A program made the translations under genes and the position numbers. The notes under the pieces were generated by a model that had not been told where the DNA came from, ran no database searches, and saw nothing but the letters and a program-made list of their open reading frames with translations. DNA of 64,000 nucleotides. Source: Pseudomonas sp. MM213 (GTDB lineage Bacteria; Pseudomonadota; Gammaproteobacteria; Pseudomonadales; Pseudomonadaceae). Shown here one piece after another: positions 8,541 through 27,649 of the stretch (positions are counted from its first letter, which is position 1; every line of letters begins with the position of its first letter). The DNA lies in NCBI RefSeq assembly GCF_020423045.1, contig NZ_CP081943.1, positions 248,001-312,000 on the forward strand, given 5' to 3'.

Positions 8541-9315
8541 GTACATATCCGTTTCTGTGGTGATGGCGGCTATTGGTTTCGCCCTTACGGCGAGTCACTT
8601 GGAAAAGCCCCAAGTAACCAAGGGCTCTTGCCCCTTTCGTTCGGTGCCTCGCCTAGGCTCGGCATGCCCTCGCTCCGGTCCTGCTCCGTGGGCCCGCCGC
8701 CATCGGCCATCCCTGGCCGGGGGCGGCTAACCCGGCATCCATGCCGGGTTGCCCACTGCGCAGAACCTCCACTCGGCCTCTCGAGGGGGCGCTCAGATCA
8801 AAAGCTGAAGGCGAGCTAACGCTCGGCCTGATGAGTGGTGAAAGTCAAAAGCGTACGCCGATCCCTGTAGGAGCCGGCTTGCTGGCGATAGCGGTGGGTC
8901 AGTTAGCGTATGTATTGGCTGGGCAGACGCCATCGCCAGCAAGCCGGCTCCTACAGGGGAGCGGTGTACATGTCCGGAATGAGTGAACACATCAAAGAAG
9001 GACAACGCGGACAACTGAAGAGCCAGGTCGGCTTTCAGGCCGCCTCGGCGGCTGTGGCGGTAGTCGCCCCCTCGAGAGGCCGAGTGGAGGTTCTGCGCAG
9101 TGGGCAACCCGGCATGGATGCCGGGTTAGCCGCCCCCGGCCATGGATGGCCGATGGCGGCGGGCCCACGGAGCAGGACCGGAGCGAGGGCATGGCGAGCC
9201 TAGGCGAGGCACCGAACGAAAGGGGCAAAAGCGCTTTGGTTACTTTCGCGCTTTTCGAAAGTGACTCGCCGTAAGGGCGAAACCAATACCAGCCATCACC
9301 GCAAAAACGGATATG
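8541..9315. repeat. Composite palindromic repeat, copy A
   Basis: Left arm about 8544-8791 and right arm about 9065-9314 are near-perfect inverted copies of a 250-bp unit running from the terminus ACATATCC to CTCGAGGGGGCG. The arms contain nested hairpins (CCCGGCATccATGCCGGG; CCATCGGCCATC..GGCCGGGGGCGGC). Between them lie a type-1 inner segment (left), one REP pair and a type-2 inner segment (right). Copies B-E carry the reverse order and two REP pairs. Open frames across the arms look like translated repeat, not genes. Confidence 0.85.
8863..8958. repeat. REP pair (REPIN-like) inside copy A
   Basis: CCCTGTAGGAGCCGGCTTGC followed about 50 bases later by its inverse complement ending GGCTCCTACAGGG. 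This is the common intergenic REP of fluorescent pseudomonads. Confidence 0.85.
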
Positions 9316-9411
9316 CCCCCCCCCTTCAAAAAAACAAACCACCTGACACAAAAACGCTCCCGCATTCGATCTGCGCCATCGGCAATACCCGAGCAAAACC
9401 ATCGGAGTTTC

Positions 9412-9425
9412 TTGATCGCCATCAA
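9412..9425 (+). promoter_or_regulatory. ANR/DNR box and promoter of norCB
   Basis: TTGATCGCCATCAA is a perfect FNR/DNR palindrome. A -10-like TATCAT lies at 9449-9454, placing the start about 41 bases from the box centre, which is a class II activation layout. norC starts at 9483. Confidence 0.9.
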
Positions 9426-13470: not shown

Positions 13471-14154
13471 TCACTCGAACTGTTCCAGGCGTGGACGATC
13501 AAGAATGGCGATCTGGCGGCCGTCCTGGGTAATGATTTTTTCATCGATCAGGCGGCGGATGATGCGCGAAAACGTCTCCGGCTGGATCGACAGGTGCCCG
13601 GCAATCAGTTGCTTGGCCATCGGCAGTTCGAATTGACTGTCGATGGTTTGCTGGCGCACCAGTTGCGTCAGCAGATAGCGCACGACCCGGTGAGTGGCGT
13701 TTTTCAGTGACAGGGTTTCGATTTCGTTGACCCGCTGGTGCAGGCGAACGCAGAGCTTGCCCAGCAGCGCGAAAGTCAGCCGGCTGTTGTTCTGCAGCAA
13801 GCGCATGTAGGTGCTGTTGGATAACCGGTAGAGCTGGGTAGGGCAGACCGCTTCGGCCGAGGCCACATAGTTGGGGGTGTCCATCAGCATCATCGCTTCG
13901 GCGAAGGTTTGCCGATCGCTGAGAACCTCGAATACTTTTTCCTGCCCGTCGGGTGTCAGGCGGTAGATCTTCACCGCCCCGGCAATCACGAAATAAAACG
14001 AATCGGCCGGCTCGCCCTGACGGAACAACGGCTCGCCTTTGTCGATGCTCAGCAGTTGGCTGGTACTCATCAATTCATCCAGCTGTTCTTCATTCAACGG
14101 CTCGAACAAGTGATGACTGCGCAGAATCTGGTGATGGACGCGATGAAGCACCAT
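13471..14154 (-). CDS. dnr: Crp/Fnr-family NO-responsive regulator DNR
   Basis: A 227-residue regulator: an N-terminal cyclic-nucleotide-fold sensor domain (about 1-125), a dimer helix, and a C-terminal helix-turn-helix with IAGHLSIQPETFSRIIRRL, whose recognition helix fits TTGAY-N4-RTCAA sites. It lacks the N-terminal Cys cluster of FNR/ANR, as expected for the heme-based NO sensor DNR. The likely targets here are nir, nor, nar and nrdD. No ANR box is visible in the 190 bases upstream; the nearest promoter signal is the sigma-54 element at 14331-14347 beyond a 29-codon frame. Confidence 0.92.
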   Translation of the reverse strand: MVLHRVHHQILRSHHLFEPLNEEQLDELMSTSQLLSIDKGEPLFRQGEPADSFYFVIAGAVKIYRLTPDGQEKVFEVLSDRQTFAEAMMLMDTPNYVASAEAVCPTQLYRLSNSTYMRLLQNNSRLTFALLGKLCVRLHQRVNEIETLSLKNATHRVVRYLLTQLVRQQTIDSQFELPMAKQLIAGHLSIQPETFSRIIRRLIDEKIITQDGRQIAILDRPRLEQFE

Positions 14155-14197: not shown

Positions 14198-14287
14198 TCA
14201 GACAAGGCCCAGGGAGATGCCGCTGGCTACCGCCAGGACGGAGGTCAACACCACAAACCAGGCCAGTGGCTGGACGACTTTTTTCAT
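14198..14287 (-). CDS. 29-residue single-pass membrane peptide upstream of dnr
   Basis: ATG at 14287 with GGGAG six bases upstream; the product begins MKKVVQPLAWFVVLTSVLAV and ends SLGLV, one clear transmembrane helix with a basic N-terminus. It is the first frame downstream of a sigma-54-like promoter (14331-14347) served by three NorR-type sites, and dnr starts 43 bases after its stop. No family is recognised. It may be a real NO-induced small protein or a leader peptide. Confidence 0.55.
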   Translation of the reverse strand: MKKVVQPLAWFVVLTSVLAVASGISLGLV

Positions 14288-14330: not shown

Positions 14331-14347
14331 AGCAAAACGCGGGCCAT
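14331..14347 (-). promoter_or_regulatory. Sigma-54-like promoter toward the small peptide and dnr
   Basis: On the minus strand the element reads TGGCCCGCGTTTTGCT, with GG-N10-GC spacing as for RpoN; one mismatch to TGGCAC-N5-TTGC. It lies 44 bases before the peptide start and about 42 bases from the nearest NorR-type site. Confidence 0.6.
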
Positions 14348-14386
14348 GCCTGAAGGCCTTTGTTTATTGGGGTTGTAGACGGACAG

Positions 14387-14443
14387 GGTAAAAAAGACCC
14401 ATGCATTTAGGGTAAAAACAACCTTCAAATGGTCATTTTTACC
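14387..14443. promoter_or_regulatory. Three NorR-type enhancer sites (GGT-N7-ACC)
   Basis: GGT-N7-ACC occurs at 14387-14399, 14411-14423 and 14431-14443, spaced 24 and 20 bases start to start (about two helical turns). This is the upstream activator pattern known for NorR in Ralstonia. A sigma-54 element lies on each side: plus strand at 14499-14514 toward nnrS and minus strand at 14331-14347. Confidence 0.8.
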
Positions 14444-14498
14444 CTGCATCAGCTACCGTTACAGCTAGGAAGTGCCGCCAGCCGTTGATCTGGAGCGG

Positions 14499-14514
14499 GG
14501 GCACGGCCCTTGCA
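14499..14514 (+). promoter_or_regulatory. Sigma-54 promoter of nnrS
   Basis: GGGCACGGCCCTTGCA: GG at 14500-14501 and GC at 14512-14513 with ten bases between, a close match to TGGCACG-N4-TTGCA. An imperfect ANR/DNR box, TTGATCTGCGACAA, lies at 14518-14531, overlapping the expected start. The nnrS ATG is about 100 bases downstream. Confidence 0.8.
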
Positions 14515-14624
14515 CACTTGATCTGCGACAAAGGCAATTGCTCGGCAATACCCGATGATTGCACCCGGAATTACCTCGCGCGCTGGTTGGCGCCAGGTCA
14601 GCAACAAGGTAGAGGAGTGGCTTT

Positions 14625-15815
14625 ATGCAAGTGCTTGACCGCCGTAAAGCGATGGCCATCGCGCCGCTGTTACGTCTGGCCTTTCGGCCGTTCTTCCTCG
14701 CGGGCGGCCTGTTGGCCGTGCTGGTCATCCCGCTTTGGCTGGCAGCCTTCAGTGGTTCGTTGTCCGCGTGGCAGCCGGCCGGTGGTTGGCTGGGCTGGCA
14801 TCGGCATGAATTGCTGTTCGGGTTCGGGCTGGCGATTATTGCGGGCTTCCTGCTGACGGCCGTACAGACCTGGACCAGTCGCCCCGGCCTCAGCGGCAAA
14901 CCGTTGGCCGCGCTGGCGCTGCTGTGGTTGGCGGCGCGCGTGGCGTGGCTGGTCAATGCCCCGTGGCCGCTGCTGGTGGTGCTGGAAATGGCGTTCCCGC
15001 TGGCGGTGGCGGCGTTGATGGGCTTCACGTTGTGGAAGGTGCGGCAAAAGCGTAACTACCCGATTGTGGTGGTCCTGCTGTTGCTGGCCGGGGCCGACGG
15101 GTTGTCCGTGTCGGGGCTGGTCGCAGGTCATGAAGGCTGGCAGCGTCAGGGCGTGCTGACCGGCATCTGGCTGGTGGCGGCCATGATGGGGTTGATCGGC
15201 GGGCGCGTGATTCCGTTCTTCACCCAGCGCGGCCTCGGCCGGGTTGACGCTGTTGCCCCTTGGCCATGGCTGGATTGGCTGCTGCTGATTGGCTCGCCAC
15301 TGGTGGCGTTGCTGTATGCCGTCGGCCCTGCGCTCAACGCCAATGTCTGGGTAGGTTTGTTGTTCGCGATGCTGGGGGCTGGGCATCTGGTGCGCCTGGT
15401 GCGCTGGCAAGATCGCGGCCTGTGGCGCGTGCCGTTGTTGTGGTCGCTGCACCTGGCTTACGGCTGGCTGGCGGTGGCTTGTCTCGGCATGGCGCTGTGG
15501 CATTTCGGCGTACCGCTGAACCCGAGCCTGGCAGTGCATTGCCTGACAATCGGCGCCATGGGCGGTCTGGTGCTGGCGATGATCGCGCGGGTAACGCTCG
15601 GGCATACCGGCCGTGCGCTGGAGCCACCGTCGGGCATGACCTTGGCGTTCATTTTGCTCAACCTGGCGTGTCTGAGTCGGGTCGTGTTGATTGTGTTTTT
15701 CCCTTTGCCGGCGCTGTGGCTGGCCGGTCTGTGCTGGACGCTGGCGTTTGCGCTGTACGCCTGGCGTTATGGGCCGATGCTGCTGCGGGCCCGGGTCGAC
15801 GGTCATCCGGGATGA
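14625..15815 (+). CDS. nnrS: NnrS family membrane heme-copper protein
   Basis: A 396-residue protein with about twelve transmembrane helices, of the NnrS family that protects cells from NO stress in denitrifiers and pathogens. The N-terminal FRPFFLAGGL motif and conserved WHRHELLFGF and PFFTQRGL motifs are present; His in such motifs binds heme and copper in relatives. GAGGAG lies eight bases before the ATG. It follows the NorR sites and sigma-54 element and precedes a copD-like gene 25 bases later. Confidence 0.93.
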   Translation: MQVLDRRKAMAIAPLLRLAFRPFFLAGGLLAVLVIPLWLAAFSGSLSAWQPAGGWLGWHRHELLFGFGLAIIAGFLLTAVQTWTSRPGLSGKPLAALALLWLAARVAWLVNAPWPLLVVLEMAFPLAVAALMGFTLWKVRQKRNYPIVVVLLLLAGADGLSVSGLVAGHEGWQRQGVLTGIWLVAAMMGLIGGRVIPFFTQRGLGRVDAVAPWPWLDWLLLIGSPLVALLYAVGPALNANVWVGLLFAMLGAGHLVRLVRWQDRGLWRVPLLWSLHLAYGWLAVACLGMALWHFGVPLNPSLAVHCLTIGAMGGLVLAMIARVTLGHTGRALEPPSGMTLAFILLNLACLSRVVLIVFFPLPALWLAGLCWTLAFALYAWRYGPMLLRARVDGHPG

Positions 15816-16389: not shown

Positions 16390-17064
16390 TCAGTGGTGTG
16401 GGTTCAGGGCGTTGATGAACAGCACGTTGTTTTCCAGGTGAATGTGTTGCATCAGGTCGTCCTTGAATTCCAGCAACCCGCGATAGAGTGCGCGCCAGGT
16501 GTTGCAGGCATCCGCCGGCGGAGTGATGTGGTGGGTCAGGGCGAGCATCTGTTCCAGCGCTTCGCCATGTTGATCATGTTCGAAACGCAGCACCTGGATC
16601 GGCGGTGCGGCCTGCGGGCCGATGCCTTGTTGCAGCATCGGGAAGAGCACTTGTTCTTCCTTGAGCATGTGGCCTTCGAGTTCTTGCTGCATGTCGCTCA
16701 GCAGATCGGCCAGGCCGTTGGGACAGGTGCTGCGCGCCCCGTGCACTTGCTCGACGCGTCGGGCCAGGCGGATCAGTTCCGGCAGTTGCTCGCGGTGGCG
16801 GGCGTGGTAGCGCGTCAGGAGGTGGGCAATCAACGCCTCGGACGTTTCGGTGCGCCAGTCGTGCTGGGTTTCGCCGGTGTCTTGCAGGGTTTCCAGGGCA
16901 TCGGCAATCAGCAGCGGATCGAGGTCTTTGCCAAGGGCCGCTTCCCGCAGGCTTTTATGCCCGCCGCAACAGAAGTCCAGTTTGAAGTTGTGAAAGATTC
17001 GGGTGGCGCCGGGAATGTCGCAGGCCAGTTGGCCGAGGCTTTGTTCCAGTAGGGTCTGGCTCAT
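16390..17064 (-). CDS. dnrN: Iron-sulfur cluster repair di-iron protein (ScdA/YtfE/DnrN)
   Basis: A 224-residue RIC-family protein that repairs Fe-S clusters damaged by NO. The N-terminal ScdA domain carries the LDFCCGG motif near residues 29-35; the C-terminal hemerythrin domain has His/Glu ligands in RYHARHREQL, EGHMLKEEQVLFP, RFEHDQHG and HIHLENNVLF. It is divergent from norR and preceded by a sigma-54 element, an IHF-like site and three NorR-type sites, so NO induction through NorR is expected. Confidence 0.93.
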   Translation of the reverse strand: MSQTLLEQSLGQLACDIPGATRIFHNFKLDFCCGGHKSLREAALGKDLDPLLIADALETLQDTGETQHDWRTETSEALIAHLLTRYHARHREQLPELIRLARRVEQVHGARSTCPNGLADLLSDMQQELEGHMLKEEQVLFPMLQQGIGPQAAPPIQVLRFEHDQHGEALEQMLALTHHITPPADACNTWRALYRGLLEFKDDLMQHIHLENNVLFINALNPHH

Positions 17065-17106: not shown

Positions 17107-17123
17107 TGCATCCGGCATGCCAT
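17107..17123 (-). promoter_or_regulatory. Sigma-54 promoter of dnrN
   Basis: On the minus strand ATGGCATGCCGGATGCA: GG and GC are separated by ten bases (17121-17120 and 17109-17108). It lies 43 bases before the dnrN start. Confidence 0.75.
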
Positions 17124-17162: not shown

Positions 17163-17219
17163 GGTGATGCGCACCCTGACGCATTAGGGTGAATCCCACC
17201 ATAGAGGGTAATTAAAACC
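17163..17219. promoter_or_regulatory. Three NorR-type sites between dnrN and norR
   Basis: GGT-N7-ACC at 17163-17175, 17188-17200 and 17207-17219. The last ends one base before the norR ATG and covers its ribosome site, so NorR could also repress its own gene, as known for E. coli NorR. Confidence 0.8.
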
Positions 17220-18749
17220 ATGCTGCGTGAAAGCCTGGCGGCCGACCTGATTGTCGAGTTGCCCAATGCCGTACGGTTGCAACGACTGGTCCAGACCCTG
17301 CGCCAATACTTCAACAGTGGCGCGGTGGGTTTATTGCGTCTGGATGACGACAGCCTCAGGCCCGTGGCGACGGTGGGGCTGGTGCATGAAGCGTTGGGGC
17401 GCCGGTTCGTCATTGCCCAGCATCCCCGGCTGGCGGCGATCATGGCCTCGCGCGAACCCGTCTGGTTCGAGCCCGACAGTCGCCTGCCGGATCCTTACGA
17501 CGGATTGCTCGACAACCACATCGGCGAACCGCTGCCGGTGCATGACTGCATGGGCGTGAGCCTGTATGTCGAGGGGCGGATCTGGGGCGCGATCACCCTT
17601 GATGCGCTGCACGCCGGAACCTTCGACAGCCGCGCACGGGAGGAGCTCAAGCGCTGCACCTTGCAGATCGAAGCAGCCGTACGGGTCACTCGCCTGGAAC
17701 AGGAAAACCGCAGCTTGCGCCTGTCCCGCAGCGATCCTCAGGATTTGCGAATGCCGGTCGAGGAGGGCGAGATCCTCGGGCAGAGTGAGGTGTTGCATCA
17801 GCTACTCAATGAGCTGGACGTGTTGGCCGACTCCGATCTGCCGGTGTTGCTGCTGGGCGAAACCGGCGTTGGCAAAGAACTGTTCGCCCGGCGCTTGCAT
17901 CGTCTGTCGCGGCGCAGCCACAAGCCGCTGATTCAGGTCAACTGCGCGGCCCTGCCCGAGTCGTTGGCGGAAAGTGAATTGTTCGGACACGTCAAAGGCG
18001 CCTTCTCTGGCGCCACGGGTGACCGTGCCGGGCGCTTCGATGCGGCCAACGGTGGCACGCTGTTCCTCGATGAAGTCGGTGAGTTGCCATTGAGTGTGCA
18101 AGCGAAATTGCTGCGCACCTTGCAGAACGGCGAGATCCAGCGCCTGGGCGCGGACAAGCCGCTGCATGTCGATGTGCGCATCATCGCCGCCACCAATCGG
18201 CACCTGCCGGACAGCATTCGCGATGGCCTGTTTCGGGCCGATCTGTATCACCGGCTCTCGGTGTACCCGGTGCCGATCCCGTCGTTGCGCGAACGCGGCA
18301 ATGACGTGTTGATGCTGGCCGGGCATTTCCTTGAGCTCAATCGGGCGCGGCTCGGCCTGCGTGGCTTGCGTCTGTCGCCGGCGGCGGAACGCGCGTTGCT
18401 GGCGTATACCTGGCCGGGCAACGTGCGCGAGCTGGAGCATGTGATCAGTCGTGCCGCCTTGAAGCAGCTCAGTCGCGGCAGCAGTCGTGCGTTGATCATG
18501 ACGCTGGAGCCCGAGATTCTTGATCTCGACAGTGCTCCGAGCGCACCGCAGGTTGTTACTGAGCCTTGCGACGCCGCTCCGGCTGATCTGCCATTCCAGC
18601 CGCTGGGTGAAGCCGTCGACGATTATCAACGCAAGAAAATTCTCCAGGCCCTGAGCCTGTCCGGGGAAAACTGGGCCAGCGCGGCGCGGATTCTGGAAGT
18701 CGATCCGAGCAATTTGCACAAACTGGCGCGGCGTCTGCGGCTCAAGTAA
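17220..18749 (+). CDS. norR: NO-responsive sigma-54 activator NorR
   Basis: A 509-residue enhancer-binding protein. An N-terminal GAF domain (about 20-165) would hold the NO-sensing iron; a AAA+ domain follows with Walker A GETGVGKE near residue 214 and the sigma-54 loop GAFSGA near 261, a conservative variant of GAFTGA. Walker B is GGTLFLDEVGEL. A Fis-type helix-turn-helix is at the C-terminus (SGENWASAARILEVDPSNLH). It is divergent from dnrN; matching sites flank dnrN and nnrS. Confidence 0.95.
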   Translation: MLRESLAADLIVELPNAVRLQRLVQTLRQYFNSGAVGLLRLDDDSLRPVATVGLVHEALGRRFVIAQHPRLAAIMASREPVWFEPDSRLPDPYDGLLDNHIGEPLPVHDCMGVSLYVEGRIWGAITLDALHAGTFDSRAREELKRCTLQIEAAVRVTRLEQENRSLRLSRSDPQDLRMPVEEGEILGQSEVLHQLLNELDVLADSDLPVLLLGETGVGKELFARRLHRLSRRSHKPLIQVNCAALPESLAESELFGHVKGAFSGATGDRAGRFDAANGGTLFLDEVGELPLSVQAKLLRTLQNGEIQRLGADKPLHVDVRIIAATNRHLPDSIRDGLFRADLYHRLSVYPVPIPSLRERGNDVLMLAGHFLELNRARLGLRGLRLSPAAERALLAYTWPGNVRELEHVISRAALKQLSRGSSRALIMTLEPEILDLDSAPSAPQVVTEPCDAAPADLPFQPLGEAVDDYQRKKILQALSLSGENWASAARILEVDPSNLHKLARRLRLK

Positions 18750-19475: not shown

Positions 19476-19844
19476 GTCTGATGGGAAATGGTGGGGGGCT
19501 TTGTTGGTGTGTATATCCGTTTCTTCGGTGATGGCGGCTATTGGTTTCGCCCTTACGGCGAGTCACTTTGGAAAAGCCCCAAAGTAACCAAAGGGCTCTT
19601 GCCCCTTTCGTTCGGTGGCTCGCTAATGCTCGGCATGCCCTCGTTCCGGTCCTGCTCCGTGGGCCCGCCGCCATCGGCCATCCATGGCCGGGGGCGGCTA
19701 ACCCGGCATCCATGCCGGGTTGCCCACTGCGCAGAACCTGCGCTCGGCCTCTCGAGGGGGCGACTACCGCCACAGCCGCCGAGGCGGCCTGAAAGCCGAC
19801 CTGGCTCTTTGCTGCGTTCACTCATTCCGGACATGTACACCAAT

Positions 19845-19955
19845 CCCCTGTAGGAGCCGGCTTGCTGGCGATAGCGTCCGTCCAGCCCATACATACGTGA
19901 CTGACCCACCGCCATCGTCGGAACGCCGCCCGCAGCAAGCCGGCTCCTACAGGGG
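19845..19955. repeat. REP pair 1 inside copy B
   Basis: CCCCTGTAGGAGCCGGCTTGC and, 65 bases later, the inverse complement ending GGCTCCTACAGGGG. Confidence 0.8.
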
Positions 19956-19985
19956 ATCGTATTTATCCAAACACATATGCACTTC

Positions 19986-20091
19986 CCTTGTAGGAGCCAG
20001 CTTGCTGGCGATGGACGTCAACGATAACGCGGGCTGTCTGAATAAACGCGTTGTTCGGACGTTTTTCGCCGGCAAGCCGGCTCCTACAGGG
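19986..20091. repeat. REP pair 2 inside copy B
   Basis: CCTTGTAGGAGCCAGCTTGC, a spacer with GGACGTCAACGATAACGCGG, then GCCGGCTCCTACAGG. The same spacer recurs in copies C, D and E. Confidence 0.8.
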
Positions 20092-20465
20092 ATCGGCGTG
20101 CGCTTTTGATTTTCACCACTCATCAGGCCGAGCGTTAGCTCGCCTTCAGCTTTTGATCTGAGCGCCCCCTCGAGAGGCCGAGCGCAGGTTCTGCGCAGTG
20201 GGCAACCCGGCATGGATGCCGGGTTAGCCGCCCCCGGCCATGGATGGCCGATGGCGGCGGGCCCACGGAGCAGGACCGGAGCGAGGGCATGGCGAGCATT
20301 AGCGAGCCACCGAACGAAAGGGGCAAAAGCGCTTTGGTTACTTTCGCGCTTTTCGAAAGTGACTCGCCGTAAGGGCGAAACCAATAGCCGCCATCACCGC
20401 AGCAACGGATATGCCCCCCAACAAACCCATCCCCCCATCAGCCAGAAATCCATGCGCCCGAGAGG

Positions 20466-27001: not shown

Positions 27002-27649
27002 TCAGCCCGCACTGCGCAGATGCTCCATGGCCCACACCGCCGCCTCGACCCGCGAGCGCAAACCGAGTTTGTGCAGCAGGTTCTTGACGTGAACCTTGAC
27101 CGTCCCTTCGGTGATGCCCAGCTTGTGCCCGATGACCTTGTTGCTGAAGCCGCTGGCGATGGTTTTCAACACCTGGCGTTCGCGCTCGGTCAGTTCAACC
27201 ACCGCCTGGCGTGGCGGCGAGCGCAACGCCTGGGCCATGACCTGGGTCAGGCCGGGGCTGATGACCAATGCACCGTCCAACGCTTCGCGGATGTACTGGA
27301 TCAACAGTTCGGGCTCCATGTCCTTGAGCAGATAACCGTCGGCATCCAGGCGCAACGCGTCGCGAATATCGTCTTCGGCGTCCGACACGGTGAACAGCAA
27401 CACTTTGCCGGTGTAGTGCATCGCGCGCAGTCGACGCAGGGTTTCAATGCCGTTCATTTGCGGCATGTTGTTGTCGAGCAACACCAGGTCCGGTTGCAGC
27501 GGTTCGATCAGGCTGAGCGCTTCCTCGCCATGGTTGGCTTCGCCGACGATCAGGAAGTCATCTTCCAGTTCGAGCATTTGACGGATGCCGCGACGCATCA
27601 TGGGATGGTCGTCTACCAGCAGGATTCTATGGTGTGGGGACGGGTTCAT
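27002..27649 (-). CDS. narL: Nitrate/nitrite response regulator NarL
   Basis: A 215-residue two-component regulator. The receiver domain has acidic DDHPMM near residue 12 and the phospho-Asp in LLDNNMPQMNG near 58. A LuxR-type helix-turn-helix follows (LTERERQVLKTIASG, ITEGTVKVHVKNLL). The ATG at 27649 overlaps the narX stop as ATGA. Three near-identical 7-2-7 sites in the window are its likely targets. Confidence 0.95.
   Translation of the reverse strand: MNPSPHHRILLVDDHPMMRRGIRQMLELEDDFLIVGEANHGEEALSLIEPLQPDLVLLDNNMPQMNGIETLRRLRAMHYTGKVLLFTVSDAEDDIRDALRLDADGYLLKDMEPELLIQYIREALDGALVISPGLTQVMAQALRSPPRQAVVELTERERQVLKTIASGFSNKVIGHKLGITEGTVKVHVKNLLHKLGLRSRVEAAVWAMEHLRSAG

Follow-up and report, generated by a model that had tools for sequence, protein, structure and literature searches.

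Is dnr, the gene for an NO-responsive regulator of the CRP/FNR family, switched on in soil pseudomonads by low oxygen only, or also by NO itself? The question is raised by the region between dnr and nnrS in a 64,000 nucleotide stretch of the Pseudomonas sp. MM213 genome. This whole stretch is referred to as the window, and all coordinates are given within it. Three NorR-type sites were found in this region, flanked on either side by an outward-facing sigma-54 element. The dnr gene in these soil Pseudomonas is probably switched on by NO itself, and not only by low oxygen. The reading favoured here, with a probability of roughly 85%, is that a shared NorR enhancer serves two sigma-54 promoters and places NorR and Dnr in a relay.

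The NorR-type array and its sigma-54 elements

The dnr gene (13471..14154, minus strand) encodes a protein of 227 aa with the Pfam domains cNMP_binding and HTH_Crp_2. No Dnr model was among the NCBIfam hits for this product, and the name Dnr therefore rests on synteny with norCBD; norCB and norD were themselves identified from translation and synteny. The divergent nnrS gene (14625..15815, plus strand) was assigned by Pfam PF05940 (E 1.5e-107). It is followed by ytfE/ric (16390..17064, minus strand), dnrN-like and encoding an iron-sulphur repair protein (NCBIfam YtfE equivalog, 326 bits, cut-off 254), and by norR (17220..18749, plus strand), encoding the NO-sensing sigma-54 activator with GAF and Sigma54_activat domains (NCBIfam NorR equivalog, 686 bits, cut-off 476). 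Near-identical peptides, e.g. PCRVAHCAEP, recur in ORF translations from either side of the cluster (about 8740-9400 and 19490-20400), pointing to repeated intergenic DNA.

The three NorR-type sites, all GGT-N7-ACC, are located at 14387..14399 (dnr-proximal), 14411..14423 (middle) and 14431..14443 (dnr-distal), with spacings of 24 and 20. A sigma-54 promoter match, GGGCACGGCCCTTGCA (14499..14514, plus strand), faces nnrS with a predicted start at about 14525. A second one, TGGCCCGCGTTTTGCT (14331..14346, minus strand), faces dnrO*-dnr, lies 53 nt from the dnr-proximal site and has a start predicted from geometry at about 14320. The sites and both outward elements were positioned as in the preliminary description of this DNA. 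Sigma-54 elements were scored at 12 positions against the consensus TGGCACG-N4-TTGCW, with GG and GC obligatory. Both elements scored 11/12 and were the sole sites in the window, on both strands, scoring at least 11; seven sites scored 10. The dnr-facing element had been described as slightly weaker and as TGGCCC-N5-TTTGCT. Its spacer is N4 (TGGCCC-N4-TTTGCT), the two scores are equal, and it is the dnr side that is better supported by conservation.

The loose sigma-54 pattern occurred in the window at chance level (109 found, 109 expected), and a REP-like sequence, TGGGAGCGAGCTTGCT, imitates a sigma-54 element at a score of 9. The lower limit for all Pseudomonas locus counts was therefore set at 10, and 9 was accepted only in the comparison of dnrN-dnrO-dnr loci from genus g36 described below. 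Genome-wide, TGGCMCGNNNNTTGCW gave 5 matches, one of them the dnr-facing site, versus 3 for a reversed-pattern control. Single GGT-N7-ACC sites were common, with 39 in the window versus 13.7 expected. Pairs of sites 5-14 nt apart were found at 17 places in the genome versus 3 in the control, and triple arrays (overlapping pairs) at only two, the nnrS/dnr intergenic region and the one between ytfE and norR (17163..17219; sites at 17163, 17188 and 17207), beside which a two-mismatch sigma-54-like element faces ytfE (17107..17122, minus strand). As the sigma-54 pattern was not clearly enriched and single sites are common, the signal lies in the array, in the combination of elements and, above all, in conservation. 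The window thus holds the parts of a NorR/sigma-54 promoter, i.e. tandem GT-N7-AC repeats (three), a -24/-12 element downstream in both directions and norR in the genome. A lone GGT-N7-ACC pair at 27161/27188 (27161-27200), which has no third site, looks like coding sequence and probably is.

Conservation of the dnr-facing promoter

A comparison of this intergenic region across denitrifying pseudomonads had been proposed in the preliminary description, and it was carried out on 81 loci (the best 80 of 161 Dnr relatives plus the window). The dnr-facing sigma-54 element, at a score of at least 10/12, was conserved in 69 of these 81 loci, leaving out L063 and L064, in which the element and its sites face ytfE. 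At least two perfect sites were present 40-110 nt upstream of the element in 64 of the 69; the array stood 216-218 nt away in L075, L097 and L098, and no perfect sites were found within 110 nt in L076 and L091. The distance from the element to the nearest perfect site (65 loci) was 53 nt in 42 loci, 54 nt in 13, 55 nt in one, 77-79 nt in six and 216-218 nt in three, whereas the distance from the array to the nnrS element drifted from 50 to 293 nt (59 loci). With near-fixed spacing on the dnr side and variable spacing on the nnrS side, the array is coupled more tightly to dnr than to nnrS. The 12 promoter positions had a mean majority frequency of 0.96 among the 61 in-register loci; at other offsets the mean was 0.57 and the highest value 0.75.

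These figures bear on an alternative in which nnrS is the sole target of the array, the match facing dnr is accidental and ANR or Dnr drives dnr through an FNR-type box. Such a box, the ANR/Dnr-type sequence TTGATCTGCGACAA with two mismatches (14518..14531), does occur between nnrS and dnr; it lies upstream of both, 94 nt from nnrS and 377 nt from dnr. The earlier claim that no ANR box is found upstream of dnr is correct close to the gene, since the window has no box with at most one mismatch in the 350 nt before dnr, and is incomplete further away, where a conserved imperfect box stands by nnrS. Among the 62 NorR-type loci holding nnrS, a TTGTC-N4-ATCAA-like box was found at most 200 nt from nnrS in 56, and a box with at most one mismatch within 350 nt of dnr in two. 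The box started 17 nt from the nnrS promoter start in 28 loci and 38-100 nt from it in another 28. The centre of the window's box coincides with the predicted nnrS sigma-54 start, which suggests dual or competing control of nnrS. Despite its two mismatches and its distance of 377 nt, the box could also act on dnr and provide ANR input.

Loci in which dnr has no NorR/sigma-54 promoter offer further support for an FNR-type box, as 11 of 12 carried one 76-299 nt before dnr (420 nt in L056; none in L086). At these loci dnr may have come to depend on the FNR-like box once NorR control was lost. The dnr gene of P. aeruginosa has been described as activated by ANR and NarL (PMC5703892), and in a study predicting Anr boxes dnr was among the genes common to P. 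aeruginosa and P. extremaustralis (PMC6588701). However, conservation is far higher in the dnr-facing element than around it, its spacing to the array varies less than that of the nnrS element, and it is absent from all 16 dnr genomes without full-length NorR. Control of nnrS alone is therefore considered improbable.

The small ORF and DnrO

An ORF of 29 aa (14198..14287, minus strand) lies between the dnr-facing promoter and dnr, as had been described. It is predicted to form a single membrane helix and is a shortened DnrO N-terminus. The ORF was present in 75 of the 81 loci (best 80 of 161 plus the window), and in 67 of these its length was exactly 29 aa. A rough dN/dS of 0.28 was obtained from 73 distinct sequences, with synonymous sites near saturation. 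Longer forms, of 50-64 and 170 aa, were found in the P. borbori branch and at one more locus. The 29-aa ORF matches the start of the 170-aa proteins, of whose 26 relatives three are named DnrO, two of these from Stutzerimonas stutzeri. Pfam and NCBIfam models gave no match to either the 29-aa or the 170-aa form at E values up to 1. The DnrO N-terminal stretch MKxVxQPLAW is present in the 29-aa ORF, and the DnrO domain with its invariant PLR-x-GM, C and DA-x-LH (25-row alignment) is absent. Since the ORF ends before this domain, it is a remnant or a derived microprotein and not full DnrO.

The position, conservation and constraint of the ORF could mean that the DnrO remnant is the true target of the promoter and that dnr is merely read through. 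Just two of the 69 loci with the promoter were without the ORF, L093 (P. donghuensis) and L099 (P. wadenswilerensis), and in these the promoter was retained 72 and 67 nt before dnr. The ORF was also absent from L180, from another genome, where the array and promoter stood 53 nt before dnr. Retention of the promoter directly before dnr at these three loci indicates that dnr, and not the ORF alone, is the target, which makes the read-through explanation very unlikely. At one locus (L011, genome G032) dnr was gone and a norB fragment abutted the small ORF, with the array, both promoters and nnrS kept; this is apparently a recent deletion.

Co-occurrence with NorR

Dnr was found at E 1e-50 or better in 88 of 398 genomes of the genus. 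NorR matches in the 398 genomes formed three identity classes, 78-100%, 62-67% and about 53%; in addition, G325 had a 76% fragment. To count as a unit, a sigma-54 element had to score at least 10/12 and to have two or more perfect sites 30-300 nt upstream. A direct dnr unit was present in 70 of the 72 dnr genomes with full-length NorR (at least 78% identity) and in none of the 16 others (Fisher p 1e-15, a value that overstates independence, as the unit label changes only about two to three times on the tree). The 88 genomes are related to one another and overlap with the named loci. Eight rows were set by hand, with the unit taken as present in L156, L157, L158, L160, L164, L182 and L175 (the last on one perfect site plus promoter) and as absent in L165; L146, L186 and L188, in which the unit precedes ytfE, were not counted as direct. 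The two NorR-bearing exceptions, and G325 among the 16, have ytfE ahead of dnr and the unit ahead of ytfE.

On a norB+dnr tree of 77 loci, the unit label required three changes, or about two, as read off the tree, if L063 and L064 are relabelled; both had been labelled as having the unit although it faces ytfE. An independent-pairs test on this tree comprised three pairs only and had no statistical power. In L063, L064 and L096 a NorR-like gene near ytfE was 70-76% identical over its last two thirds, and no unit was found at dnr. This argues against a simple rule of no NorR, no unit, and "without NorR" is to be read as without the full-length class. In L063 and L064 the unit faces a ytfE-like gene just before dnr, and an FNR-like box specific to dnr stands at -76; L146 has the same layout, with the unit before ytfE.

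Another NorR-like activator, an FhpR-like paralogue of about 53% identity, could in principle use the array. NorR matches at E 1e-120 or better were found in 383 of the 398 genomes, mostly of this weaker class, and the sites of the paralogue may be similar to those of NorR. Twelve dnr genomes lacked both full-length NorR and the 62-67% class; all of them had at least one weaker match, and none had a direct dnr unit. The paralogue is thus disfavoured as the driver and barely credible in this role.

Expression data and the proposed NO relay

Published RNA-seq data are available for P. donghuensis P482 exposed to tomato exudate, a treatment interpreted by the authors as NO stress (PMC10256816). 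Log2 changes were +3.23 for dnr, +4.99 for nnrS, +4.19 for norD, +4.18 for norB, +4.44 for norC, +6.13 for hmp, +6.36 for ytfE and -1.67 for norR. No induction of nir genes was reported under this exudate-borne stress, and ccoNOQP and hcnAB decreased. Cells were grown in orbitally shaken plates, for which the accessible text gives no oxygen level. Harvest was in early stationary phase, at 28 h with exudate and at 33 h for the controls, so that growth times differed. As genes with Anr boxes in other pseudomonads include hcnA and ccoN (PMC6588701), the decrease of ccoNOQP and hcnAB makes ANR activation an unlikely cause of the rise in dnr. The layout of P. donghuensis was read from strain HYS and the expression data are from strain P482. 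In its accessible part the P482 paper notes the gene cluster and proposes no NorR control of dnr (PMC10256816). The rise in dnr could also be caused by Dnr autoregulation or an unseen sigma-70 promoter.

A perfect FNR/Dnr box, TTGATCGCCATCAA (9412..9425, motif match), is located upstream of norCB in the window and is the likely point of Dnr action there. All 72 loci compared had an FNR box with at most one mismatch in the 1000 nt upstream of norB; a NorR pair was found there in none of the 72 and a lone sigma-54-like match in four. With an FNR box throughout and no NorR pair, the NO response of norCB most likely runs through an FNR-type regulator, and Dnr is a plausible intermediary.

The suggestion in the preliminary description that NO sensing by NorR feeds into dnr is supported by the conserved element, the fixed spacing, the co-occurrence with NorR and the survival of the promoter after loss of the ORF, all of them sequence comparisons, and NO induction of dnr fits the RNA-seq data from a species with this layout (PMC10256816). 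In the proposed mechanism, the three-site NorR enhancer would serve the divergent promoters of nnrS and dnrO*-dnr. NorR would bind the array, sense NO and open sigma-54 polymerase at both promoters, and newly made Dnr, an NO sensor too, would then act at FNR-box promoters such as that of norCB. NorR and Dnr would together form a two-step NO relay for which ANR is not required.

Dnr sets the timing of nir, nor and nos and hence N2O production or consumption. If NO raises Dnr through NorR without ANR, denitrifying pseudomonads in soil could prepare for NO reduction while some oxygen is left, for instance close to roots releasing NO. Models in which dnr is gated by oxygen alone would then be wrong for such pseudomonads, and it would be clear why NO stress induces norCB, despite its lack of NorR sites, but not nir.

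Stutzerimonas-type clusters and origin

DnrO of S. stutzeri was matched in 65 of 248 genomes of the family. The best 30 of the 65 matches, all from genus g36 (probably Stutzerimonas), were compared. In all 30 loci norR and dnrN-dnrO-dnr pointed away from each other. Three sites were present, together with a sigma-54 element scoring 9-11 that lay 53 nt (11 loci) or 54 nt (19 loci) from the array. This uniform arrangement makes the link between NorR and dnr look old, and the layout in the window may be a rearranged form of an operon of the dnrN-dnrO-dnr type. NO induction of P. stutzeri dnrN and dnrO has reportedly been described by Vollack and Zumft in 2001. Eight further g36 loci had been chosen for a short or stop-bearing DnrO match; six had DnrO cut to 45-71 aa with the N-terminal helix kept. 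Near norR, L238 among the eight had two perfect sites; L239 lacked an element scoring at least 10. The helix repeatedly outlives the rest of DnrO, which suggests a function of its own.

A wider proposal is put forward tentatively and is judged rather doubtful as a whole: NorR-to-Dnr would be the ancestral denitrification wiring in the family and the ANR-centred dnr of P. aeruginosa derived, NO would be sensed possibly with oxygen present, and the shortened DnrO helix would be a working membrane microprotein tuning Dnr or NO handling.

Comparison with known systems

No statement of NorR control of dnr was found in the literature covered, which is weak evidence of absence, as subscription journals were mostly outside this coverage. 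The genome paper of P. fluorescens F113 names NorR2 and a dnr gene, with no link drawn between them in its accessible part (PMC3570484). The locus is probably a real circuit, under-described and made of known parts. The nnrS genes of P. aeruginosa and V. cholerae are predicted to be NorR-regulated, like nnrS in the window, although an array held in common with dnr is not mentioned in the accessible part of that work (PMC1274295). The dnr gene of P. aeruginosa encodes the same kind of regulator as dnr in the window, but is the one described as ANR- and NarL-activated (PMC5703892).

In P. stutzeri, NorR sites and a sigma-54 promoter were predicted upstream of dnrN in dnrN-dnrO-dnrD (PMC1274295, in whose main text dnrD is absent). 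A review places P. stutzeri ric under DnrD and not NorR, which counts against the NorR reading (PMC9268430). In the window, dnrN is instead next to norR, dnr has a separate NorR promoter, which it shares with nnrS, and DnrO is reduced to 29 aa. The norR-norVW system of E. coli has the same parts as the window, namely NorR, three GT-N7-AC sites and a sigma-54 promoter (PMC1274295, PMC2941729). Its target is an NO reductase, whereas in the window one array faces two sigma-54 promoters and one of the predicted targets is a second NO-sensing regulator.
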